This document shows positions 44,660-57,841 of a DNA stretch of 64,000 nucleotides, one piece after another. The notes under the pieces are model-generated. The model did no database searches. It was not told the DNA's origin and was given only the letters and a program-made list of their open reading frames with translations. Numbering within the stretch: position 1 is the first letter of the stretch; each line of letters opens with the position of its first letter. The position numbers were made by a program, and so were the translations under genes. The stretch comes from Streptococcus salivarius (GTDB lineage Bacteria; Bacillota; Bacilli; Lactobacillales; Streptococcaceae), in assembly GCF_002094975.1 (NCBI RefSeq), contig NZ_CP015283.1:1225501-1289500 (forward strand), given 5' to 3'.

Positions 44660-44697
44660 AGAATAGAGAAATAAAGTTATATTGAAAGGTGTATGTT

Positions 44698-46683
44698 ATG
44701 GAAAAGAAAGTTGGATTTAAGTTACACAAGGTCAAGAAAAATTGGGTAACCATTGGAGTTAGTACGCTGTCGATGGTTGCACTTGCGGGTGGAGCCTTTT
44801 TGTCAGACCAATCGGCACAAGCAGATGAAGTGTCACTACCTAATGGTGACGGTTTTGAACAAACAGATGCAGGTATTGAATCAAGTGCCTCAATGATTAA
44901 TGAAAGCTATTCGCCAACCTTGACAGAAGATGCTGGCCATTTGTCAGCGGTGTCATCTAACTATGGCAGTCAAACAAGCTCAAGCTACGAGTCTTCATCA
45001 TCTGCCTCAACAGGAGGCTCATCACAGACTGTGGTAGGTGGTGGAGCTGGTCAAGTGAGCTCGTCACAATCTTCTCAAGTAGTAGGAACACAAAACTCTA
45101 ATTCATCACAAACGGGTTCTGCTTACCAATCAAGTAGCAGCTCAGCATCAGTAAGTGCTAGTGCGTCAAGTTCGTCAAGCTCATCAAGTTCAGCTTGGTA
45201 TTCTTACTCGTCGTCATCATCTTGGTCATCATCATCGTCAGCTAGCGGTTTTGCGACAATTACGACAAGTTCGTCTGACTCAAACGGCATTCATTGGAAT
45301 GGTGGTCGAAACACGACGATTACCATCACGGCTTCAGGAACAACTCCGAATGTGACTATCGTTTCGAACTCTAATAAACTGTTTCCAAATGTGACAGTAG
45401 GTCAATCAAACGGTTCAAATGCTAATGTCACTATCATTTCACAAGGAAATCAACAAAATAACTCAGGTTACCAAATCATCTCAGGCGAGACTAAGCCAAG
45501 TGTTGATTCGAACAATGCCAAGTCTTCATTTGTCCGTGTAGGCGAGAACCAATGGTATTATTACGACCAATATGGCCAAAAGGTCAAAGGTGAAAAGGTC
45601 ATCGATGGTAAGGCTTATTACTTCCTTGAAAATGGTCTTCAAGCTCGTGACTCACTTGTTAAAGGTAGCGATGGCTACACTTATTATTACGATAAAAATG
45701 GTGTGAAAGCTATCAACGGTTTCTACGATTTTGCAGGTTACCGTAAGGATGTCCGCTATTTTGACTGTTATGGTCACATGGCTACTGGTCTCCTTGAAAT
45801 GGGTGGCACAACCTTCTACTTTGATACACAAACAGGTATCCAAGCTAAAGACAAGTTTATTCGCTTCTCAGATGGCCGTATCCGTTACTTCATTCCTGAT
45901 ACTGGTAATATGGCTGTAAATACCTCTGTTCAAAATAAAGAAAACCAAGCTTGGTACTACCTAGATGAACATGGTTACGCTGTGACAGGAAAACGTATCA
46001 TCAATGGTAAAGAATATTGCTTTGACTCAGAAGGCCGTCAAATCAAAGGTCAGATGATGCAACAAGGCAACAAGCAATACTACATTTCTGCCCAAACTGG
46101 TGAAATGGCTGTTTCACGCTTTATCTTTGAAAATAACAACTGGTATTATGCGGATGCTTTTGGTTGCCTCGTTCAAGGTGCAAAAGTGATTGATGGTAAA
46201 CTCTATTACTTCAACAAAGACCACAGTCAGTTAAAAGGTGGCTGGGCTGAAGGACGTTACTATGATGCCGTCACTGGTCAAGCAGTAATCAACCAATTCA
46301 TTCAAATTGCGGCTAACCAATGGGCTTACCTTAACCAAGATGGTCACAAAGTAACAGGTCTTCAAAATATTAACAATAAAGTTTACTATTTTGGTAGCAA
46401 TGGTGCTCAAGTCAAAGGTAAATTGCTCACTGTCCAAGGTAAGAAATGTTACTTTGATGCCCACACAGGTGAGCAAGTGGTAAACCGCTTTGTCGAAGCT
46501 GCACGTGGCTGCTGGTATTACTTTAACTCAGCTGGCCAAGCAGTGACTGGACAACAGGTCATCAATGGTAAACAACTTTACTTCGACGGTTCAGGTCGTC
46601 AAGTTAAAGGACGTTATGTTTATGTTGGTGGTAAACGACTCTTCTGCGATGCCAAAACTGGTGAATTGAGACAGCGTCGCTAA
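44698..46683 (+). CDS. Glucan-binding protein derived from a glucosyltransferase, catalytic domain absent, 661 residues
   Basis: Start at ATG 44698 behind GAAAGGTG (a GTG at 44689 is part of that site). Signal peptide KVGFKLHKVKKNWVTIGVST as in the glucosyltransferases, then a Ser-rich region (about 90-190, including nine Ser in a row). Next come the NTTITITASGTTPNVTIV phrases shared with the 39483 enzyme, and directly the glucan-binding repeats (about 270-661), which align unit for unit with the C-terminus of that enzyme. The ~850-residue GH70 domain is absent, as in GbpA-type proteins. Six Cys occur, all in the repeats, at positions that are Gly, Tyr, Asn or Val in the enzyme. Role: glucan binding without synthesis. 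Confidence 0.88.
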   Translation: MEKKVGFKLHKVKKNWVTIGVSTLSMVALAGGAFLSDQSAQADEVSLPNGDGFEQTDAGIESSASMINESYSPTLTEDAGHLSAVSSNYGSQTSSSYESSSSASTGGSSQTVVGGGAGQVSSSQSSQVVGTQNSNSSQTGSAYQSSSSSASVSASASSSSSSSSSAWYSYSSSSSWSSSSSASGFATITTSSSDSNGIHWNGGRNTTITITASGTTPNVTIVSNSNKLFPNVTVGQSNGSNANVTIISQGNQQNNSGYQIISGETKPSVDSNNAKSSFVRVGENQWYYYDQYGQKVKGEKVIDGKAYYFLENGLQARDSLVKGSDGYTYYYDKNGVKAINGFYDFAGYRKDVRYFDCYGHMATGLLEMGGTTFYFDTQTGIQAKDKFIRFSDGRIRYFIPDTGNMAVNTSVQNKENQAWYYLDEHGYAVTGKRIINGKEYCFDSEGRQIKGQMMQQGNKQYYISAQTGEMAVSRFIFENNNWYYADAFGCLVQGAKVIDGKLYYFNKDHSQLKGGWAEGRYYDAVTGQAVINQFIQIAANQWAYLNQDGHKVTGLQNINNKVYYFGSNGAQVKGKLLTVQGKKCYFDAHTGEQVVNRFVEAARGCWYYFNSAGQAVTGQQVINGKQLYFDGSGRQVKGRYVYVGGKRLFCDAKTGELRQRR

Positions 46684-46846: not shown

Positions 46847-48362
46847 TTAATTTTGAGTCGTTCTCTTATTGTATTTTAGGAGGTTATTGGCCATGAGAAC
46901 CAATCCCATGTCAATTTTAACCTGTCGTTTGCCTCTTAGATTACGTCTCTTGTAACCCAAACAAGCCTTTATCTGACCAAAGACAGGTTCCACATCAATC
47001 TTGCGTTGAGCGAAAATTTGTCTACCTTCGTCAGATAAAAGCGTTTGACTTTCTTTTACTTTTAAGTGCTGATAGCGTACGTTCATTTTGAGGAGCTGAT
47101 TCAGGTTGTTCTGCCTTATAAACCCTGATTTCCTGTTTAAAACCTGTCGTGGTATGGTTGTGTTTGACGTGGTCAAACTGGTATACCCACCCCTCTGGAT
47201 GGGTGTAGGAATCAGCCGTCCCATCGTAAGTCCAATTATCCAAATTCCTATCAGATTCTTTGTGTTTTTTCTTCTGTTCCTTATCAAAAAGACTATATTT
47301 AATCAAATGATCAACACCCATCCTATCCAAGGTGAGAAGATTCTCCTCGCTATCGTATCCCGCATCGGCGACAACTCTTTTTAACTCATGTGGATAGCTT
47401 TCTAAAAAAGGAAACAGCATGCTGGTGTCTGTTGGATTTGAGAAGACATCATAGTGAAGCTCAAATTGGTTTTCAGTAGCGATTTGAAGATTATAACCAG
47501 CCTTAAGTTGTCCATTTCTCATATGGTCTTCTTTCATCCGCCTAAAAGTGGCATCTGGATCGGTTTTAGAAAAGCTGTTGCGCCCTTCAAATGTCTCTTG
47601 ATAGTTCTCATCTTTTTCAGCACGTACTGAAAAATCATCCTTAACTTTACGCAGGACTTTCTTGAGCTTACGACGTTGAGTTTTACGTTCGTCCTTTCCT
47701 TTAACTGGTGTTTCCTCAATATCATGGCTTAGTTCAGCCAATTCTTCTTCAAGAAGCTGAGCGAACTCAGTCAACTGTTCTGAGGAGATAGGTTCTTGTG
47801 TATCCAGTTCAATAGCTTGATGGATAAGAGTTGTGATTTCTTCTTGGAAATAGACCTGCATCTGTTCTTGAAGTTTAGCGGATAATTTTTCTGTCGCTTT
47901 TTTCCAAACAAAGCTGTACTTATTGGCGTTAGCTTCAATCTTAGTTCCGTCAATAAACAAACAATCTAAGGTCACTAACTCTTCTATTTTTAAACGAAGA
48001 TTGAGGTCGATGAAAAGATTACGAATGAGGTCTTCCATCCCTTCAGCGACTCGAAAACGATTGATGGTACGGTAGCTGACAACCAACTGTCCTGTTAGGT
48101 ATTGAATAACGAGATTTTTAATCATCATTTTTTCAATTTTTCGACCAGAGAAAATTCCTTGTGAATAGGTAAATAGAAGAGTAGATACAAGCATTTTAGG
48201 GTGATAAGACGGACGACCGAAGGCATGATAGAAGGCCTGGAAGTAACTGTCATCTTGTGCATTGACAACCTTTTCGATGGTGAAAACGATGTGGTCTTGA
48301 GGTAAGATGCAAGCAAGTTCTAGTGGTAAAGTTGTTTGATTTGTGTTATAGCGAATGTGCAT
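46847..48362 (-). pseudogene. IS1182-family transposase, frameshifted
   Basis: Residues 1-430 (from ATG 48362) give a typical IS1182 N-terminus: PKMLVSTLLFTYSQGIFSGRKIE, LDCLFIDGTKIEANANKYSF and RMKEDHMRNGQLKAGYNLQIA. Around 47072-47085 the frame shifts: the first frame runs out shortly after QNERT, while the next continues correctly with RYQHLKVKESQTLLSDEGRQIF and ends VEPVFGQIKACLGYKRRNLR...LLKYNK. Both parts would make one ~500-residue DDE transposase. IS1182 elements are not known to need frameshifting, so the element is probably inactive on its own. Confidence 0.85.
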
Positions 48363-48425
48363 GGGATGGCCTTTCTAAATGGTTTTTTGGCCAATTCTAT
48401 TTCACCAAGACTATCACAATCATGC

Positions 48426-48456
48426 AAAAAGCAACGGCATAAAACCGTTGCTTTTT
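48426..48456. terminator. Bidirectional hairpin terminator at the IS end
   Basis: A 12-bp stem AAAAAGCAACGG / CCGTTGCTTTTT with 7-base loop. It would stop transcription from shp entering the IS, and the reverse. Confidence 0.8.
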
Positions 48457-48485
48457 GGAGCTAAAGGACTTTTGTCCCAGACTCT

Positions 48486-48557
48486 TTATCCCACGACGAT
48501 AACGATAATGCCTTCAAATACGACAAGAAGAAGTGTTAGTAAATTTTGCTTTTTCAT
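48486..48557 (-). CDS. shp: SHP quorum-sensing pheromone precursor (23 residues)
   Basis: Begins MKKQNLLTLLLVV and ends FEGIIVIVVG followed by TAA. The C-terminal EGIIVIVVG is the form of mature group-I SHP pheromones (Glu-initiated), which are exported, processed, re-imported by the oligopeptide permease and bound by Rgg. RBS GTGAGGA 8 bases upstream. Divergent from rgg, as in other shp-rgg pairs. The stop codon touches the end of the IS. The gene is too short for normal gene finding. Confidence 0.9.
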   Translation of the reverse strand: MKKQNLLTLLLVVFEGIIVIVVG

Positions 48558-48585
48558 GTGATAATCCTCACTTTTGTTTTTCTTT

Positions 48586-48627
48586 ATTGTATGATATGAT
48601 GAAAGCAAATGAAAATTATTCCCATAT
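48586..48627 (-). promoter_or_regulatory. shp promoter with Rgg box
   Basis: ATATGGGAATAATTT (48627-48613) with a -10 box TACAAT (48591-48586) starting 36 bases after the box begins. The wgkA promoter has the same box with one change and the same 36-base offset. Confidence 0.8.
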
Positions 48628-48647
48628 ATGCGTGATGGAGGTGTAGT

Positions 48648-49484
48648 ATGAAAAAATTTGGAGAAATTTTTAAAAAGTTTCGAGAATCGAGAGGATTACG
48701 ATTAAAAGACGTCGCAAAGGCTGGTATATCAACGTCTCAGCTCTCTCGATTTGAGAAAGGAGAAACAGATTTAACGATTTCAAAGTTCATGTTTATTTTA
48801 GATGAAATCAATATGCCAATAGATGAATTTATGTATGCGGTCCATGATTTTCATAGAGATGAGTTAAACGAACTGTTATCGAAAGTACGTCATTTTGTGT
48901 CAACACGTGACGTAGAAGGTATGAAAAAATTACTTTATTCTCAGATGGAACTGGAAGATAGGCGAGAAAAATTTCATCAAATCAATATTATTTTATTGAA
49001 AATTCGTCTACAGGATTTATCAGGAGAAACTTACTATACAAAGGATGATTTGACATATTTAACAGATTATCTCTTTAGTGTAGAATACTGGGGGTACTAT
49101 GAGTTATTGATTTTCTCGAATACTTTAGATGTATTAAATCATGATGTTTTCATGGTCTTAGCAAGAGAAATGTTTAGGCGTTCTGATTTTTACAAAGAAA
49201 TTCCAAATAACAGACGATTAATTTCAACGATGCTTTTAAATGGATATATTACATGTGTTGAAAGAGAAAAATTTATGGATGCTTTATATTTTGAAAAGCA
49301 GCTAAATCAATGCTTTTTTATTGAGACAGAAGTATATGAACGTTTAGTCTTTAAGTATGCACAAAATCTTTATCAATATAAAGAGGATGGAAATGTGAAA
49401 GCAATTATTGAAATGAAGAAGTGTGTTGGAGCGATGAAATTAGCAGGAAGTCATCACTTAGCAAAGACTTATGAAGGACATTAA
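48648..49484 (+). CDS. rgg: Rgg-family SHP-responsive transcriptional regulator
   Basis: A 278-residue regulator. The N-terminal Cro/CI-type HTH (residues 1-60, FKKFRESRGLRLKDVAKAGISTSQLSRFEKGETDL) is followed by an all-helical peptide-binding domain with repeat-like helices (residues 65-278). It has the usual Rgg length and lacks a membrane segment. Start ATG 48648 behind GATGGAGGTG. It is divergent from shp and lies just upstream of the radical-SAM RiPP operon. By analogy with Rgg/SHP systems, it would bind imported SHP and activate shp and wgkA through the shared box. Confidence 0.9.
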   Translation: MKKFGEIFKKFRESRGLRLKDVAKAGISTSQLSRFEKGETDLTISKFMFILDEINMPIDEFMYAVHDFHRDELNELLSKVRHFVSTRDVEGMKKLLYSQMELEDRREKFHQINIILLKIRLQDLSGETYYTKDDLTYLTDYLFSVEYWGYYELLIFSNTLDVLNHDVFMVLAREMFRRSDFYKEIPNNRRLISTMLLNGYITCVEREKFMDALYFEKQLNQCFFIETEVYERLVFKYAQNLYQYKEDGNVKAIIEMKKCVGAMKLAGSHHLAKTYEGH

Positions 49485-49517
49485 GAAAATATTTTAGCTA
49501 GTAGTTAGAAAATGCAA

Positions 49518-49559
49518 ATATGGGAATATTTTATTGTAAGTGTTGAAAAGGAATATAAT
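49518..49559 (+). promoter_or_regulatory. wgkA promoter with Rgg box
   Basis: ATATGGGAATATTTT (49518-49532), -10 box TATAAT (49554-49559), no good -35: the pattern of an activator-dependent promoter. It matches the shp promoter in box sequence and offset. Confidence 0.8.
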
Positions 49560-49590
49560 CACAGTATCATATTCGAAAGGAGTACCAAAT

Positions 49591-49683
49591 ATGTCTAAAG
49601 AGCTTGAAAAAGTCCTTGAGTCTAGTTCAATGGCAAAAGGTGACGGCTGGAAGGTGATGGCAAAAGGTGACGGCTGGAAGTGA
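49591..49683 (+). CDS. wgkA: Radical-SAM RiPP precursor peptide, WGK (tryglysin) type, with duplicated core
   Basis: A 30-residue peptide: leader MSKELEKVLESSS, then MAKGDGWKV, then MAKGDGWK and stop. KGDGWK matches what is known of the WGK subfamily of streptococcal radical-SAM peptides, in which the enzyme links Lys and Trp side chains; tryglysins of S. mutans, which inhibit other streptococci, belong here. RBS GAAAGGAG 9 bases upstream. The core is present twice, and the second copy ends after Lys without the following Val. It is followed by an attenuator hairpin and the radical-SAM gene. The family call is from memory; the motif, Rgg/SHP and enzyme context all agree. Confidence 0.88.
   Translation: MSKELEKVLESSSMAKGDGWKVMAKGDGWK
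49630..49680 (+). repeat. Tandem direct repeat of 24 bases within wgkA
   Basis: Two identical 24-base units (49630-49653 and 49657-49680, each encoding MAKGDGWK) separated by GTG. No base differs between the copies, which indicates a recent duplication. Confidence 0.97.
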
Positions 49684-49706
49684 TAAAGTAATTTATCCCA
49701 TAAGTT

Positions 49707-49737
49707 AAGCAGAGGCTATATTTTCCTCTGCTTTTTT
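49707..49737 (+). terminator. Partial terminator between wgkA and wgkB
   Basis: AAGCAGAGG / CCTCTGCTT, a perfect 9-bp stem followed by T-run. It probably lets precursor mRNA exceed that of the enzyme genes, as is common in RiPP operons. Confidence 0.75.
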
Positions 49738-49752
49738 AGAAAGGTATTCAAT

Positions 49753-51072
49753 ATGATGACAATTTCAGAAGATTTTTTATTTAGACTAGAAAAGTTTGGT
49801 GGAATTTTGATAAATAAAGTAACTTTTGACCGAATTGAGTTAGATGAGAGTGAAGCTTATTTTCTTTATTTGGTTCAAAATCATGGTTTTGAAATTGCTA
49901 CGTCCTTTTTTAAGAAAGAAATAAAAGCAGGAAAACTAGAGCGAGTACTCTTATTAAATATCTATTCTGATAATAATATTGAGGGATCATCGAAAAATCC
50001 TGACGAGACTCTTCAAAATGCGAGAAAGCATGTAGCAAAATTAAAAAAACATAACATATTGAGTTTTCCGCTTGAACTAGTAATATACCCCAGTATGTAC
50101 TGTGATTTAAAATGTGGTTTTTGTTTTTTAGCAAATCGTGAAGATAGAAATGCCAAACCTGCTAAAGATTGGGAAAGAATTTTGCGCCAAGCAAAAGATA
50201 ATGGAGTGTTAAGTGTTTCAATTTTAGGAGGGGAACCGACTAGATATTTTGATATTGATAATTTGTTGATAGCTTGTGAAGAACTGAAGATAAAGACTAC
50301 TATAACAACTAATGCCCAATTAATAAAGAAAAGTACAGTGGAAATTCTAGTTAAATCTAAATATATTACACCGGTTTTATCTTTGCAGACTTTAGATCCT
50401 AAATTAAATTTTGAATTAATGGGGGTGAGACCTGATAGACAAATTAAATTAGCGAAGTACTTTAAAGAGGTTGGAAAAAAATGTAGAATTAATGCAGTGT
50501 ATACAAAGCAAAGCTATGAGCAGATTATAGAATTGGTTGATTTTTGTATAGAGAATAAAATAGATAGATTTTCAGTAGCTAATTATTCTGAGGTAACAGG
50601 ATATACGAAAATAAAGAAAAAATACGATTTAGCTGATTTGAGAAGGTTGAATGAGTATGTTACAGATTATATAACTCAACGGGAAGCTAATTTAAATTTT
50701 GCTACTGAGGGATGTCATCTTTTCACCGCTTATCCGGAGTTGATAAATAATTCAATTGAATTTTCAGAGTTTGACGAAATGTATTATGGATGTCGTGCAA
50801 AATATACTAAGATGGAAATAATGTCTAATGGGGATATCTTGCCTTGCATTGCTTTTTTAGGAGTTAATCAAACTAAGCAGAATGCCTTTGAAAAAGATTT
50901 GTTAGATGTTTGGTATGATGATCCGTTGTATGGAGGGATTCGTTCTTTTAGAACGAAGAATTCTAAGTGTTTATCTTGTGGATTGTTAAAAATTTGCGAG
51001 GGTGGCTTCTATGTTAACTTGATTAAGGAGAAGAGTCCAAAATATTTTAGAGACCCAGTTTGTAACTTATGA
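49753..51072 (+). CDS. wgkB: Radical-SAM/SPASM peptide cyclase of the WGK RiPP cluster
   Basis: A 439-residue enzyme. The N-terminal ~90 residues have a PqqD/RRE-like look (SEDFLFRLEKFGGILINK) and would bind the leader peptide. The radical-SAM core has the [4Fe-4S] motif Cys117-x3-Cys121-x2-Cys124 (MYCDLKCGFCF) and SILGGEPT. The C-terminal SPASM domain has clustered Cys (YGCRAKY, ILPCIAF, KCLSCGLLKICEGG, DPVC), binding auxiliary clusters. It would install the Lys-Trp crosslink in the KGDGWK core. Start ATG 49753 (or 49756) behind AGAAAGG. It overlaps the transporter gene by 4 bases. AT-rich like the whole cluster. Confidence 0.88.
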   Translation: MMTISEDFLFRLEKFGGILINKVTFDRIELDESEAYFLYLVQNHGFEIATSFFKKEIKAGKLERVLLLNIYSDNNIEGSSKNPDETLQNARKHVAKLKKHNILSFPLELVIYPSMYCDLKCGFCFLANREDRNAKPAKDWERILRQAKDNGVLSVSILGGEPTRYFDIDNLLIACEELKIKTTITTNAQLIKKSTVEILVKSKYITPVLSLQTLDPKLNFELMGVRPDRQIKLAKYFKEVGKKCRINAVYTKQSYEQIIELVDFCIENKIDRFSVANYSEVTGYTKIKKKYDLADLRRLNEYVTDYITQREANLNFATEGCHLFTAYPELINNSIEFSEFDEMYYGCRAKYTKMEIMSNGDILPCIAFLGVNQTKQNAFEKDLLDVWYDDPLYGGIRSFRTKNSKCLSCGLLKICEGGFYVNLIKEKSPKYFRDPVCNL

Positions 51073-52160
51073 GTAAGAAGATTTTTAATTTATACGGAAT
51101 GAATATGTTTCTATCTGGATTACCGTACTACTTTGTAGGAATTTTACTATTAAAGCACTTAGGTTTTTCGTTCACAGAAATAGCTACTTTATCAGTTATT
51201 ACTGAGCTATGTGGTTCAGTTTTTGATATTCCTTTAAGTTATATTTCAAGTAAGATTGGTTACAAGAAAATTTTGGCTATTTCAAATTTATTATTAATTT
51301 TAGCATTATGGGGCCTATTGTTTGGAAAATCAAATATAATATATATTTCAGCGATATTTTTTGGATTGTCAGAATCATTATCTTCAGGAGTTCTTATTTC
51401 TTATAATTTTGAAATAATTGATGACGAAGTTGTATATAAATCATTTTTGAAAAATCTCAACACATTAAAATATATTTTTATTGCTATTATTACGATTATA
51501 TCTCCACCTTTATTGCATAGGAATTATATTTATCCTATTATTATATCCATTGTATTTGTAATTTTCAGTCTATTATATTTAATAGGATTACCCGAGATTA
51601 AAAAGGAACAAAATAATAAACAAAAATTTTTTAGTCTCGATAATATTCAAAATATTCCATGGTTATTAATAATATTAGGAGTAGCATTCTCAACTCTAAT
51701 TATGATTAGCAATTCTTATGCAGGGATATTCTTAAATGAACAGGGACTTTCACTAGATATGCTGGGAATTATACTATTTATGTTTAATATATCTATGGCT
51801 TTGGGGAGTTATCTAAAAATTAAGTTTGAAGTAAGCTTGATGTTACCAGTATTAGCTATACTCATGTTTTTTCAAACTAATCTAATCATCCAAATTATAA
51901 TCCTTTTATTAATGCGTGTTCTTAATTCCAACTACAATAATCATTTTTATTATAAATTTAATATGTCAATAGAAAAAAATAGAGCAGTATCATGGTCAGT
52001 ATATAATTTGTTTATTTCGATTAGTTTTATGTTAGCTGATTTCCTAGCTGGTATTTTTGCTGATAACTTTAGTATTAGGAGCAATTATTTAATATTTGGT
52101 ATAGTAGCTCTTTGTTGCTTAGTATCTTATTCATTTTCTAACAGAGAGAAAAGAACTTAA
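51069..52160 (+). CDS. MFS-type transporter of the RiPP cluster (probable peptide exporter)
   Basis: A 363-residue protein with about ten to twelve membrane segments. The cytoplasmic loop after helix 2 (SSKIGYKKILAISN) fits MFS motif A. It starts in ATGA overlap with the radical-SAM gene, so the two are translationally coupled. It is the only transporter in the cluster and so the likely exporter or self-resistance pump for the mature peptide. Shorter than most MFS proteins (about 400 residues). No protease gene is present, so leader removal must come from elsewhere. No terminator was seen after it. Confidence 0.8.
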   Translation: MSKKIFNLYGMNMFLSGLPYYFVGILLLKHLGFSFTEIATLSVITELCGSVFDIPLSYISSKIGYKKILAISNLLLILALWGLLFGKSNIIYISAIFFGLSESLSSGVLISYNFEIIDDEVVYKSFLKNLNTLKYIFIAIITIISPPLLHRNYIYPIIISIVFVIFSLLYLIGLPEIKKEQNNKQKFFSLDNIQNIPWLLIILGVAFSTLIMISNSYAGIFLNEQGLSLDMLGIILFMFNISMALGSYLKIKFEVSLMLPVLAILMFFQTNLIIQIIILLLMRVLNSNYNNHFYYKFNMSIEKNRAVSWSVYNLFISISFMLADFLAGIFADNFSIRSNYLIFGIVALCCLVSYSFSNREKRT

Positions 52161-52333
52161 AAGTTGTATTTCTAATTCATTTGCCAAATTATTGATAGCA
52201 CAATTGTTTGCAAATTTAGCAGATATTTTCTTTAGAGTATAAGATTGAATGATATGCTTGGTATTAAGTATATGTCAGTTATGGTTATTTGTCCTACTGG
52301 TAGGGCTAATGACGGTAGTATTTTAGCAGATAA

Positions 52334-52559
52334 AAAACAACTGCTTCAGCTTACGATCTTTACACTCTAGCGGATGAAGCCCTTCCGTCAAGTGTCTGCT
52401 GATCATGCCTATAAGGAAGGGGAAGGTGACAAATCCCTAGCCTATTGGCGTCAGGTTCATGAGGACTGTTTCGTCGAGTGGCTGAGAGAGGCAGGAATGA
52501 CTTTTACACCTAACAGCAAGGTTGTTTTAGAAGAATTTCGCAAGGTTTATCCATTATAG
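52334..52559 (+). pseudogene. Internally deleted ASCH-domain protein
   Basis: Two pieces of one gene in different frames. From 52334 the frame reads KTTASAYDLYTLADEALPS. The other frame then continues FRQVSADHAYKEGEGDKSLAYWRQVHEDCF to VLEEFRKVYPL, stop at 52557-52559. ASCH proteins carry about 45 more residues between these parts and an N-terminal segment. The fragment is joined at about 52383. It is a remnant of an RNA-binding-like domain protein. Confidence 0.75.
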
Positions 52560-53071: not shown

Positions 53072-56000
53072 ATGGAACAAAAAGTACGCTTTAAAATGCA
53101 TAAAGTGAAGAAGAACTGGGTGACTATTGGGGTGACAGCACTCTCAATGGTTACCGTTGCTGGTGGAACTTTGTTGGCGGATCAACAGGTTCAGGCCGAC
53201 GAGCAAAATCCTGCAAATCAGTCGAGTGATAGCAGTCAGGATTTGCTTCAAGAAACACCTGCTACAACTAATGATGTAGCTACTACTGTAGCGCCAACTA
53301 TCTCAGCAGATGCTAATACTGCGAGCGTGGCCATTCCTGTCGCAGATGCGACTAGCACGACAACAAATGCTACAGATAGGGCAGCAGCATCTGCTTCAAA
53401 CGTAGCGACAGTGCAAACTAACTCAGGTCAAGCAGCACCAAGTACAAATGTGCAACCTGCTGCAACAGATACTAGCGCCACAGCTACAGATACAAATACT
53501 AACACTAACACTAACGCTTCAGTAACTGCAACGGATCGTGTAGCTACTACAGACCGTGCAGCAACAACTGATACGGCAAGTACAGAAGCTCGTACACGTA
53601 GTCGCCGTGACTTGGCAGAAACTCGAGAAGCCAACACCAACACAGCGACTGGTATCCAATGGATCAACGGCAAACAATACTATGTCAATAGTGACGGTAG
53701 TGTGCGTAAGAACTTCGTCTTTGAGCAAGACGGTAAGTCTTATTACTTTGATGCTGAAACAGGGGCTCTTGCGACTAAGTCACAGGATGAATTTTCAACA
53801 GAACCTATCAAGGCGACTGTGGATTTTTCATCTGGAAACCAGCTCTACAAAAACGATGACAAATCTTTGGACCAACTGGACACCTTCATCACAGCGGATG
53901 CTTGGTACCGTCCAAAGAGTATTCTCAAGGATGGTAAGACTTGGACGACTTCAACTGAGGCTGACAAACGTCCACTCTTGATGGTTTGGTGGCCTGACAA
54001 GTCAACTCAGGTTAACTACCTTAACTACATGCAAAATCAAGGTCTTGGTGCAGGGTCATTTTCAACCAACTCTAGCCAGGAAAGTCTAGACCAAGCTGCC
54101 AAGATGGTTCAGACTAAGATTGAAGAACGTATCGCTCGTGAGGGCAATACCAACTGGTTGCGTACAAGTATTGACCAGTTCATCAAGACTCAGCCAGGTT
54201 GGAATAGTAGCACTGAAAATAGTTCATATGACCACTTGCAAGGTGGACAGTTGCTCTTTAACAACAGTAAGGGTGATACTGGCAACCGTACGAGCCACGC
54301 CAACTCTGACTATCGTTTGCTTAACCGCACACCGACTAACCAGACGGGTACACGTAAGTACTTCAAGGACAATTCTATCGGTGGTCTTGAGTTCTTGCTT
54401 GCCAACGATATTGATAACTCAAACCCAGCTGTTCAGGCAGAGCAACTTAACTGGCTCCACTTTATGATGAATATCGGAAGTATCATGGCCAATGACCCAA
54501 CAGCCAACTTTGACGGTTTGCGTGTCGATGCCGTGGACGATGTGGATGCTGACCTTCTCCAGATCGCTTCAGATTACTTCAAAGCAGCCTATGGTGTTGA
54601 CAAGTCTGAAGCCAATGCGATCAAACACTTGTCATACTTGGAAGCGTGGTCTTACAACGACCCATATTACAACAAGGACACTAAGGGGGCACAACTACCG
54701 ATTGATAATGCCCTTCGTAATGCTCTTACCAACCTTTTGATGCGTGATAAAAATACACGTATGCAGCTTGGGGACATGACTGCTTTTATGAATAGTAGTT
54801 TGAATCCACGAGGTGCTAACGATAAGAACGGTGAACGTATGGCCAACTATATTTTCACCCGTGCCCACGATACTGAAGCTCAAACCATTATTCAACGTAT
54901 CATTCACGCTCGTATCAATCCAAATGTGTTTGGCTACAATTTCACTCGTGATGAAATCAAGAAAGCCTTCGAGATTTACAATGAGGATATTGATAAGGCT
55001 CATAAAACTTATGCGTCTTACAACTTGCCATCTGTCTATGCCCTCATGTTGACCAACAAGGACTCTGTAACACGTGTTTATTATGGAGACCTCTACCGTG
55101 AGGATGGTCACTATATGGCCAAGAAGACGCCTTACTTTGATGCCATCGACACCCTTTTACGTGCCCGTATCAAGTATGTAGCCGGTGGTCAAGATATGGA
55201 CTATAAGACAGTTGGAAATGGTAATCTCTTGACTTCTGTTCGTTATGGTAAGGGTGCTAATAACAGCACTGATTGGGGAACTGCTGAAACCCGTACACAA
55301 GGAATGGGTGTCATTTTGACCAATAAGGACGATTTCCGCTTGGGTAGAAATGAAACTGTAACGATGAACATGGGTAGAGCTCACCGTAATCAGCTTTACC
55401 GTCCGTTGCTTTTGACAACCAAAGATGGTATCAAGACCTATCTAAATGATTCTGATGTCCCTTCAAACCTTCTTAAGCGAACAGACCGAAACGGAAACTT
55501 GACCTTCAATGCCAATGATATTTTTGGTGTGGAAAACGTGCAAGTATCAGGTTACCTCGGTGTCTGGGTACCAGTCGGGGCTAAGGCTAACCAAGACGCA
55601 CGTACACAGCCAAGTAACCGTGCCAATAGTGACGGACAAGTTTATAAGTCTTCAGCAGCTCTTGATTCTCAAGTTATGTATGAAGCCTTCTCAAACTTCC
55701 AAGCTTTTGCGGACGATCAGCCAGAACTCTACATGAACCGTGTCTTGGCTAAGAACACTGACTTGCTCAAAGCTTGGGGTATTACGTCTGTTGGACTTCC
55801 ACCACAGTACGTTTCAAGTAAGGATGGTACCTTCCTTGATTCAACGATTGACAATGGTTATGCCTTTGATGACCGTTATGATATGGCCTTGAGTCAAAAT
55901 AACAAGTACGGCTCACTTGAGGATCTCCTTAACGTCCTTCGAGCTCTGCACAAAGACGGTATTCAAGCCATTGCTGACTGGGTGCCAGACCAAATCTATA

Positions 56001-57841
56001 ACCTTCCTGGTAAAGAAGTAGTTAACGCTACACGTGTAAATGGTTACGGTTATCATCAGGCGGGCTACCAAATTGTTGACCAAGCCTATGTGGCCAATAC
56101 CCGCACAGATGGTACAGACTATCAAGGCAAGTACGGAGGTGCCTTCCTTGATGAGTTAAAAGCTAAGTACCCATCTATTTTCAATCGTGTACAAATCTCA
56201 AATGGTAAGCAGTTACCTACGAACGAAAAGATTACCAAATGGTCTGCTAAGTACTTCAACGGAACCAACATCCTTGGACGAGGCATCAACTTTGTTCTTC
56301 GTGATGATAAGACCAACCAGTACTTCAATACTTCAGCCAACAGCCAACTATTGCCAACACCACTTCGTGACACAGGTGCCATCACAAGCACTCAAGTCTT
56401 CCAACGTCGTGGACAAGACGTTTACTTCCTTCGTGATAACCAAACCGTTAAGAATGAATTTGTTCAAGATGGTAGCGGTAACTGGTATTACTTCGGTGCT
56501 GATGGTAAGATGACCAAGGGTGCCCAAAACATCAATAACAAGGATTACTATTTCTTTGACAATGGTATCCAATTGCGTAACGCCCTTCGTCGTGCTAGCA
56601 ACGGCTATACCTACTATTACGGTCTAGACGGCGCAATGGTTAAGAATGCCTTCGTTGATTTTGATGACAAACATAAGCAGGTTCGTGCCTTTACGACTCA
56701 AGGAACAATGGTAGTGGGTAACCTTCATTGGAGTGGCCACCATTTCTACTTTGACCGTGAAACTGGTATCCAGGCTAAGGATCGCGTTGTTCGTACAGAT
56801 GATGGCAAATTGCATTACTATGTTGCTGAAACTGGTGACATGGGACGTAACGTCTTTGCGACAGACAGCAGCACAGGTAAACGTTATTACTTTGACGCTG
56901 ACGGTAATACTGTGACTGGTTCACGTGTCATTGATGGTAAGACTTATTACTTTAACCAAGATGGTAGTGTTGGTACGGCCTACAGCAATCGTGCAGATTC
57001 TATTATCTTTGAAAATGGTAAGGCTCGCTACATCACACCAGCAGGTGAAATCGGACGCAGCATCTTTGTCTACAACCCAGCAACTAAGGCATGGAACTAC
57101 TTTGATAAAGAAGGTAACCGTGTCACAGGACGTCAATACATTGATGGTCACCTCTATTACTTCAAGGAAGATGGTAGCCAAGCTAAGGGTGAAATTATCG
57201 AGGAAAACGGCATTAAGTATTACTATGAGCCAGAATCAGGTATTCTTGCTAGCGGACGCTACCTCCAAGTTGGTGATGACCAGTGGATGTACTTCAAACA
57301 AGACGGTTCACTGGCTATCGGCCAAGTTCGTGCTGATCATGGATACCTTAAGTACTTTGATAAAAATGGTATCCAAGTCAAAGGTAAAACCATTGTCGAA
57401 GATGGTAAGACTTATTACTATGATGCCAATAGTGGAGCCCTTGTCACAAGCAGCTTTGCCGAGATTGCACCAAATCAATGGGCTTACTTCAACACTGAAG
57501 GCCAAGCTCTTAAAGGCAAGTGGACCATCAATGGCAAGGAATACTACTTTGACGAAAATGGTATCCAATACAAAGGCAAGGCTGTTAAGGTCGGCAGTCG
57601 TTACAAGTACTATGACGAAAACGACGGTCAACCTGTAACTAACCGCTTTGCTCAAATCGAGCCTAACGTCTGGGCTTACTTTGGAGCAGATGGTTATGCC
57701 GTAACAGGCGAACAAGTCATCAATGGCCAACACCTTTACTTTGATCAATCAGGTCGTCAAGTTAAAGGTGCCTACGTCACAGTTAACGGTCAACGCCGTT
57801 ATTACGATGCTAACACTGGCGAATATGTCCCAGGAAGATAA
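53072..57841 (+). CDS. Glucosyltransferase (glucansucrase), GH70, 1589 residues
   Basis: Signal peptide of the same type (QKVRFKMHKVKKNWVTIGVT). Thr/Ala/Asn-rich variable region to about 195, a pair of repeats (QYYVNSDGSVRKNFVFEQDG), then the GH70 domain (about 230-1065). Catalytic residues are nucleophile Asp486 (NFDGLRVDAVDDVD), acid/base Glu524 (YLEAWSYND) and stabiliser Asp600 (RAHDTEAQ). The C-terminal glucan-binding domain has about 20 repeats. The residues after the stabiliser Asp (TEAQ) differ from the first enzyme (SEVQ); this position influences linkage type, so the two enzymes probably make different glucans. S. salivarius is known to carry several gtf genes (gtfJ-M); I do not assign which. 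Confidence 0.95.
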   Translation: MEQKVRFKMHKVKKNWVTIGVTALSMVTVAGGTLLADQQVQADEQNPANQSSDSSQDLLQETPATTNDVATTVAPTISADANTASVAIPVADATSTTTNATDRAAASASNVATVQTNSGQAAPSTNVQPAATDTSATATDTNTNTNTNASVTATDRVATTDRAATTDTASTEARTRSRRDLAETREANTNTATGIQWINGKQYYVNSDGSVRKNFVFEQDGKSYYFDAETGALATKSQDEFSTEPIKATVDFSSGNQLYKNDDKSLDQLDTFITADAWYRPKSILKDGKTWTTSTEADKRPLLMVWWPDKSTQVNYLNYMQNQGLGAGSFSTNSSQESLDQAAKMVQTKIEERIAREGNTNWLRTSIDQFIKTQPGWNSSTENSSYDHLQGGQLLFNNSKGDTGNRTSHANSDYRLLNRTPTNQTGTRKYFKDNSIGGLEFLLANDIDNSNPAVQAEQLNWLHFMMNIGSIMANDPTANFDGLRVDAVDDVDADLLQIASDYFKAAYGVDKSEANAIKHLSYLEAWSYNDPYYNKDTKGAQLPIDNALRNALTNLLMRDKNTRMQLGDMTAFMNSSLNPRGANDKNGERMANYIFTRAHDTEAQTIIQRIIHARINPNVFGYNFTRDEIKKAFEIYNEDIDKAHKTYASYNLPSVYALMLTNKDSVTRVYYGDLYREDGHYMAKKTPYFDAIDTLLRARIKYVAGGQDMDYKTVGNGNLLTSVRYGKGANNSTDWGTAETRTQGMGVILTNKDDFRLGRNETVTMNMGRAHRNQLYRPLLLTTKDGIKTYLNDSDVPSNLLKRTDRNGNLTFNANDIFGVENVQVSGYLGVWVPVGAKANQDARTQPSNRANSDGQVYKSSAALDSQVMYEAFSNFQAFADDQPELYMNRVLAKNTDLLKAWGITSVGLPPQYVSSKDGTFLDSTIDNGYAFDDRYDMALSQNNKYGSLEDLLNVLRALHKDGIQAIADWVPDQIYNLPGKEVVNATRVNGYGYHQAGYQIVDQAYVANTRTDGTDYQGKYGGAFLDELKAKYPSIFNRVQISNGKQLPTNEKITKWSAKYFNGTNILGRGINFVLRDDKTNQYFNTSANSQLLPTPLRDTGAITSTQVFQRRGQDVYFLRDNQTVKNEFVQDGSGNWYYFGADGKMTKGAQNINNKDYYFFDNGIQLRNALRRASNGYTYYYGLDGAMVKNAFVDFDDKHKQVRAFTTQGTMVVGNLHWSGHHFYFDRETGIQAKDRVVRTDDGKLHYYVAETGDMGRNVFATDSSTGKRYYFDADGNTVTGSRVIDGKTYYFNQDGSVGTAYSNRADSIIFENGKARYITPAGEIGRSIFVYNPATKAWNYFDKEGNRVTGRQYIDGHLYYFKEDGSQAKGEIIEENGIKYYYEPESGILASGRYLQVGDDQWMYFKQDGSLAIGQVRADHGYLKYFDKNGIQVKGKTIVEDGKTYYYDANSGALVTSSFAEIAPNQWAYFNTEGQALKGKWTINGKEYYFDENGIQYKGKAVKVGSRYKYYDENDGQPVTNRFAQIEPNVWAYFGADGYAVTGEQVINGQHLYFDQSGRQVKGAYVTVNGQRRYYDANTGEYVPGR

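Follow-up and report, generated by a model that had tools for sequence, protein, structure and literature searches.

A streptide locus with a tandem core and an altered maturase in Streptococcus salivarius

The short gene strA of S. salivarius encodes a precursor peptide that ends in two copies of the same core unit, which raises the question of what the second copy is for. A preliminary description of this DNA had taken strA for a WGK precursor of the tryglysin type and had offered three answers: two peptides, a doubly crosslinked product or a frozen replication slip. Positions given below refer to the window, i.e., the whole 64-kb stretch of DNA that was analysed. Judged by its sequence, the locus is a chromosomal streptide locus with the gene order shp - rgg - strA - strB - strC. 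It appears to be an ordinary member of that family, of modest interest on account of variation in core number and signs of decay. The double core is not new, as a second KGDGW has already been described for the S. thermophilus precursor.

Organization of the locus

The following features were identified in the window.
48486..48557, minus strand: shp, encoding the short hydrophobic signal peptide MKKQNLLTLLLVVFEGIIVIVVG, the last nine residues of which are EGIIVIVVG
48617..48627, minus strand: ATATGGGAATA motif, a candidate Rgg-responsive element, about 70 bases upstream of shp
48648..49484, plus strand: rgg, encoding a regulator of the SHP-responsive type of 278 residues (RGG_Cterm, Rgg_C)
49518..49528, plus strand: the same 11-mer, followed downstream by TATAAT, about 73 bases upstream of strA
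49591..49683, plus strand: strA, encoding a KxxxW (streptide) precursor of 30 residues with a tandem core
49630..49653, plus strand: core unit 1, MAKGDGWK, in which Lys16 and Trp20 are the expected crosslink pair
49633..49659, plus strand: predicted mature streptide AKGDGWKVM, by analogy with the S. thermophilus form
49657..49680, plus strand: core unit 2, MAKGDGWK and then the stop codon, predicted to remain unmodified
49708..49737, plus strand: hairpin followed by a T run between strA and strB, a probable attenuator or terminator
49753..51072, plus strand: strB, encoding a KxxxW cyclic peptide radical SAM/SPASM maturase of 439 residues
51007..51009, plus strand: codon 419 of strB, TTC (Phe)
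51069..52160, plus strand: strC, encoding an MFS-type transporter of 363 residues, the presumed exporter (PF07690, 66.1 bits)

The plus strand from 49591 to 49683 translates to MSKELEKVLESSSMAKGDGWKVMAKGDGWK and ends in a TGA stop codon; AAAGGAGT, which resembles a ribosome-binding site, is found upstream of the ATG. The two core units are identical at all 24 bases; GTG separates them, and TGA follows the second. A degenerate KGDGWK pattern, allowing up to one mismatch, occurs exactly twice in the window, while 100 shuffled sequences contained a mean of 0.02 and at most one occurrence, none of them having two. The precursor is matched only once across the whole genome (2.33 Mb). The duplicated core reported earlier is therefore confirmed, as two identical 24-base units in a 30-residue precursor, and the same description was right to place a RiPP precursor beside a radical SAM/SPASM enzyme, a transporter, which is of the MFS type, and an SHP/Rgg pair.

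Family assignment

Tryglysins (WgkA/WgkB) resemble the product expected here in being Lys-Trp crosslinked RaS-RiPPs tied to SHP/Rgg, and the Lys-Trp motif, the radical SAM/SPASM enzyme and the SHP/Rgg neighbours of strA all match the description of WGK loci. Tryglysins differ, however, in enzyme family and in bond chemistry. Among the NCBIfam models, the precursor matches TIGR04079 (KxxxW-cyclized peptide pheromone) with 57.2 bits against a cut-off of 35, and the adjacent StrB matches TIGR04080 with 902.3 bits against a cut-off of 500, whereas the WgkB model NF050035 gives StrB 35.3 bits, far under its cut-off of 650. The nearest solved structures (PDB 5v1q, 5v1s and 5v1t) are those of the streptide-type enzyme SuiB, a full-length homologue of StrB (938.7 bits, residues 1-439). 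Moreover, rgg and an shp ending in EGIIVIVVG lie beside strA, as in streptide loci. Membership in the WGK/tryglysin family is ruled out by the NF050035 score, and a WGK-type precursor with a duplicated core retains practically no probability; the assignment made in the preliminary description was wrong. The locus is filed as streptide by descent, a label that makes no claim to a working enzyme.

Comparison with the S. thermophilus streptide system

The precursor of S. thermophilus (ME_30, gene ster_1357; StrA) is reported to resemble that of the window in having 30 residues, with KGDGW at residues 16-20 after the leader and a second KGDGW at the C-terminal end. The S. thermophilus peptide presumably ends in Glu, as the name ME_30 suggests, whereas the window precursor ends in Lys. 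The reported mass of the former, 3312.3, is closer to the value for a Lys ending (3312.6) than to that for a Glu ending (3313.6), but the masses given for two other peptides are 0.5 and 0.7 Da low, so the precursor mass cannot settle which residue is present.

SHP/Rgg control in S. thermophilus involves an identical mature SHP. EGIIVIVVG is the published mature SHP1358, or SHPgp_sali_6, the SHP of the streptide system, as given in PMC7564271 and PMC12445099. According to the same papers, mature streptide in S. thermophilus cultures is AKGDGWKVM, a peptide of nine residues with one crosslink. This form corresponds to residues 15-23 of the window StrA, i.e., to one nine-residue (27-base) period. 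A 2026 review (PMC13361665) describes streptide as a peptide of uncharacterized function and unknown processing.

Variation in core number

Core number varies in nature, being one, two or three in the sequences compared. A precursor search of 284 Streptococcus genomes gave 11 matches. The genome of the window has two cores; each of the remaining 10 has a single core. A single core was also found in seven of the eight named loci (S. agalactiae, two S. suis, two S. mitis and two Streptococcus sp.), which derive largely from the same assemblies as the 284-genome set and are not independent cases. Neither a core nor any KGDGW was seen in the eighth locus, that of S. suis HCJ31. Among 335 genomes of the family, the sole StrB-bearing genome of another genus (G302) has one core; a Lactococcus lactis control genome that also matched in the genome searches stands outside the core-number counts. 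A sampled search of 395 genomes of the order returned five precursor matches, four of them from Streptococcus and one (G457) under the family cut-off. The single-core KxxxW precursors (S. agalactiae, S. suis, S. mitis and others) are near-identical to the window precursor in leader and first core, and their loci, where intact, have the same gene order; those of Streptococcus differ in having one core and in ending WK, WHV, WR or WKL.

Further units were found among database proteins. Sixteen protein clusters matched the 47-residue open frame, and 13 of these were judged by eye to be of the tandem type. Two clusters, P0039 (24 contigs) and P0040 (2 contigs), feature three units. In 6/13 tandem-type clusters (P0045 and P0047-P0051, of which P0048-P0051 were classed as tandem solely from a KV(M) remnant) the second unit is altered or has a frameshift, and in 2/13 (P0037 and P0044) the first unit is altered, a comparison that involves small numbers and some clusters that are single metagenome sequences and possible assembly errors.

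The window strA differs from that of S. mitis SK564, and likewise from that of S. agalactiae, by a 27-base insertion and one base. Whichever of offsets 39-63 is chosen for a 27-base deletion in strA, the remaining sequence is one base away from that of SK564 and one base from that of S. agalactiae. The array was probably derived from a single-core ancestor through a 27-base tandem insertion. The earlier proposal of a frozen replication slip is correct in part, given this insertion relative to the single-core strA of SK564 and S. agalactiae, but other core numbers are also found among database proteins.

Absence of the duplication from the 10 other precursor-bearing genomes might instead be attributed to an assembly error in the window. 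Such an error is highly improbable, since a second KGDGW has been reported independently in S. thermophilus (PMC5491770), several protein clusters from other contigs have two or three units, and the 51-base array fits inside one sequencing read.

A mobile element was also considered as the source. Megablast of positions 48400-52200 against 72,556 plasmid records gave no match, the StrB relatives found on plasmids (168 records) are all less than 60% identical, and a search of viral contigs with one exact degenerate double-core pattern gave no match. The mobile-element reading was rejected on these searches.

Role of the second unit

The explanation that we favour, with moderate confidence, is that the second unit of this streptide locus is a cleavage-context extension which is discarded, that it originated by the 27-base insertion, and that the pathway is weak or decaying. 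SHP signalling via Rgg, a control known from S. thermophilus, would turn on strA-strB-strC. StrB would then position the first KGDGW by means of the leader and join Lys16 to Trp20, the bond reported for the S. thermophilus peptide (PMC5491770). Rather than forming a second product, unit 2 would act as a C-terminal extension supplying a second M/AKGDGW cleavage context (the slash marks the cut). Cuts at M14/A15 and M23/A24 would free the 9-mer AKGDGWKVM, whose length is precisely that of one repeat unit, and an AKGDGWK tail without modification would be left over.

Both cuts would share the M/AKGDGW context because the repeat is nine residues long. Since mature streptide also spans nine residues, i.e., one 27-base repeat, the second copy is most likely an extension that repeats this context; on the simplest reading, which we infer, it would provide the second cleavage site and afterwards be discarded. 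Single-core Streptococcus precursors end just after the ring, and a second cut would therefore be unneeded in them. S. mitis SK564 has Ile in place of Met before AKGDGW. Met at this position is thus dispensable for membership and perhaps also for cleavage, which counts slightly against the proposed role.

Lys and Trp are both unchanged in unit 2, as would also be expected of a working second core. If both units were crosslinked, the precursor would give two crosslinked peptides, AKGDGWKVM and AKGDGWK, as might be expected from the match of the units over 8 residues and 24 bases and from the existence of three-unit precursors. In Benjdia et al. 2017 (PMC5491770), however, the second KGDGW at the C-terminal end of the S. 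thermophilus 30-mer is described as 'never modified' in vitro, even in variants carrying a substitution at the first Lys or Trp, and the StrB reaction is described as dependent on leader and position. In addition, the window StrB is devoid of a conserved cluster ligand. Crosslinking of both units is thus very unlikely, and the two peptides or doubly crosslinked product envisaged earlier are weakened as candidates, although the enzyme assayed was that of S. thermophilus.

Unit 2 might also be a neutral, functionless product of replication slippage, with C-terminal trimming proceeding independently of it. The range of unit number and the altered second unit in almost half of the tandem-type clusters (6/13) are consistent with neutrality, as is the report that a single-core 21-mer is turned over efficiently in vitro, and indeed faster (kcat 0.14 versus 0.09 per min; PMC5491770). 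In contrast, the end of the mature 9-mer coincides exactly with the repeat boundary, and VM/A is kept at the second junction in 12/13 tandem-type clusters, a retention that is partly expected, as frameshifts inside the unit would preserve VM/A anyway. A neutral second unit is rather unlikely, and we retain the discarded extension as the preferred reading.

The StrB maturase

StrB retains the radical SAM CX3CX2C cysteines (Cys117, Cys121 and Cys124) and six of the seven conserved SPASM cysteines (residues 347, 365, 406, 409, 415 and 437), but residue 419 is Phe. Across 42 aligned StrB sequences, the window is alone in having Phe at position 419; the other 41 have Cys. The set comprises the window, nine loci (including L006, a broken-gene piece) and P0001-P0032, some of which are near-duplicates; four of the 36 matches, the broken loci L009 and L034 and the later-found L037 were left out. 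Cys is found at the corresponding position in SuiB, according to the alignment, and at position 419 in S. thermophilus StrB, as reported.

PMC5491770 describes Cys419 as a predicted ligand of auxiliary cluster I, and the C419A enzyme as having very low activity, some being retained; the iron-sulfur content of single Cys mutants was comparable with that of the wild type. In SuiB, the auxiliary clusters are described as fully ligated (PMC6231123). The window enzyme is probably impaired. StrB dN/dS is 0.33 relative to S. mitis SK564 and 0.13-0.19 relative to five other sequences, values that argue against an old pseudogene, and we read the locus as a case of recent partial decay or a weakened system. 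With both an auxiliary-cluster cysteine of StrB and the last eight residues of Rgg lost, the pathway in the window strain would probably have reduced activity.

The 'intact' enzyme and exporter of the preliminary description therefore holds insofar as StrB and StrC are full-length open frames and fails insofar as StrB is without a conserved cluster cysteine. Its suggestion that an intact enzyme points to expression is weakened by Phe419 and by the shortened Rgg.

A broader, speculative scheme, which we consider unlikely, treats StrA as a core array of one, two or three nine-residue units in which repeat number sets the product ends. Each unit would bring its own M/AKGDGW cut site, so that added units would turn a precursor ending after the ring into one releasing a 9-mer, and three-unit alleles would free one crosslinked and one linear AKGDGWKVM. 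Given Phe419, the copies released by the window strain could for the most part lack the crosslink, and they might mimic or block the crosslinked peptide made by its neighbours.

What gives the locus lasting interest is its natural Phe419 enzyme, together with the series of core numbers. Alleles that naturally have one, two or three cores, like a natural StrB lacking one cysteine of an auxiliary cluster, offer ready material for testing at which site the protease cuts, what purpose the second motif serves and to what extent auxiliary cluster I is needed.

Relative to six relatives that agree with one another, only residues 419, 430 and 435 of StrB are private to the window (51007-51057). All three fall within the last 21 of the 439 residues, which may reflect a local event or relaxed constraint there.

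Broken enzyme genes were observed at other loci. strB is broken or partly deleted, and strA kept, in S. mitis SK642 (L009) and in genome G181 (L024/L034), which indicates that enzyme loss has occurred in other strains too. In S. suis HCJ31 (L006), approximately 1.7 kb of other DNA interrupts strB past about residue 31, and the gene contains an internal stop; the strB-strC DNA of this locus is 97.5% identical to that of the window. In P0033, the first 114 residues of a window-identical StrB are joined to a MATE-type transporter (PF01554), possibly as the result of a deletion fusion.

Regulatory elements, transporter and flanking genes

The shp gene is divergent from rgg and lies upstream of strA. 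Among 10 loci, the 11-mer is present upstream of both shp and strA in three (the window, L002 and L005), at one place in three (L003, L004 and L008) and, as an exact match, at neither in four. Its presence before both genes in the window favours the proposed control, whereas its occurrence at both places in just 3/10 loci counts against it. The hairpin with its T run is present in the window and in 5/5 relatives tested, and the fold of a 69-nt stretch has a z-score of -2.35.

The window Rgg is eight residues shorter at the C terminus than P0053 (286 residues), from which it differs at two other residues, and Rgg length is 286-289 in all eight relatives read. The window protein stops eight residues early (49460-49484); the ends of the relatives are otherwise similar, featuring HLEKIL or a close variant. 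The 363 residues of StrC are free of stops, as they are in the four relatives compared, a further point against decay.

Adjoining the str locus, a 61-residue frame at 52374-52559 is a probable gene remnant, since it aligns with positions 57-103 of an ASCH domain model that has 103 positions. Further frames occupy 46847-48362 on the minus strand and 44689-46683 and 53072-57841 on the plus strand; two transposase-like frames lie beside the locus, and genes resembling those for glucan-binding proteins or glucosyltransferases are found on either side of it, all of them named by eye from their translations.
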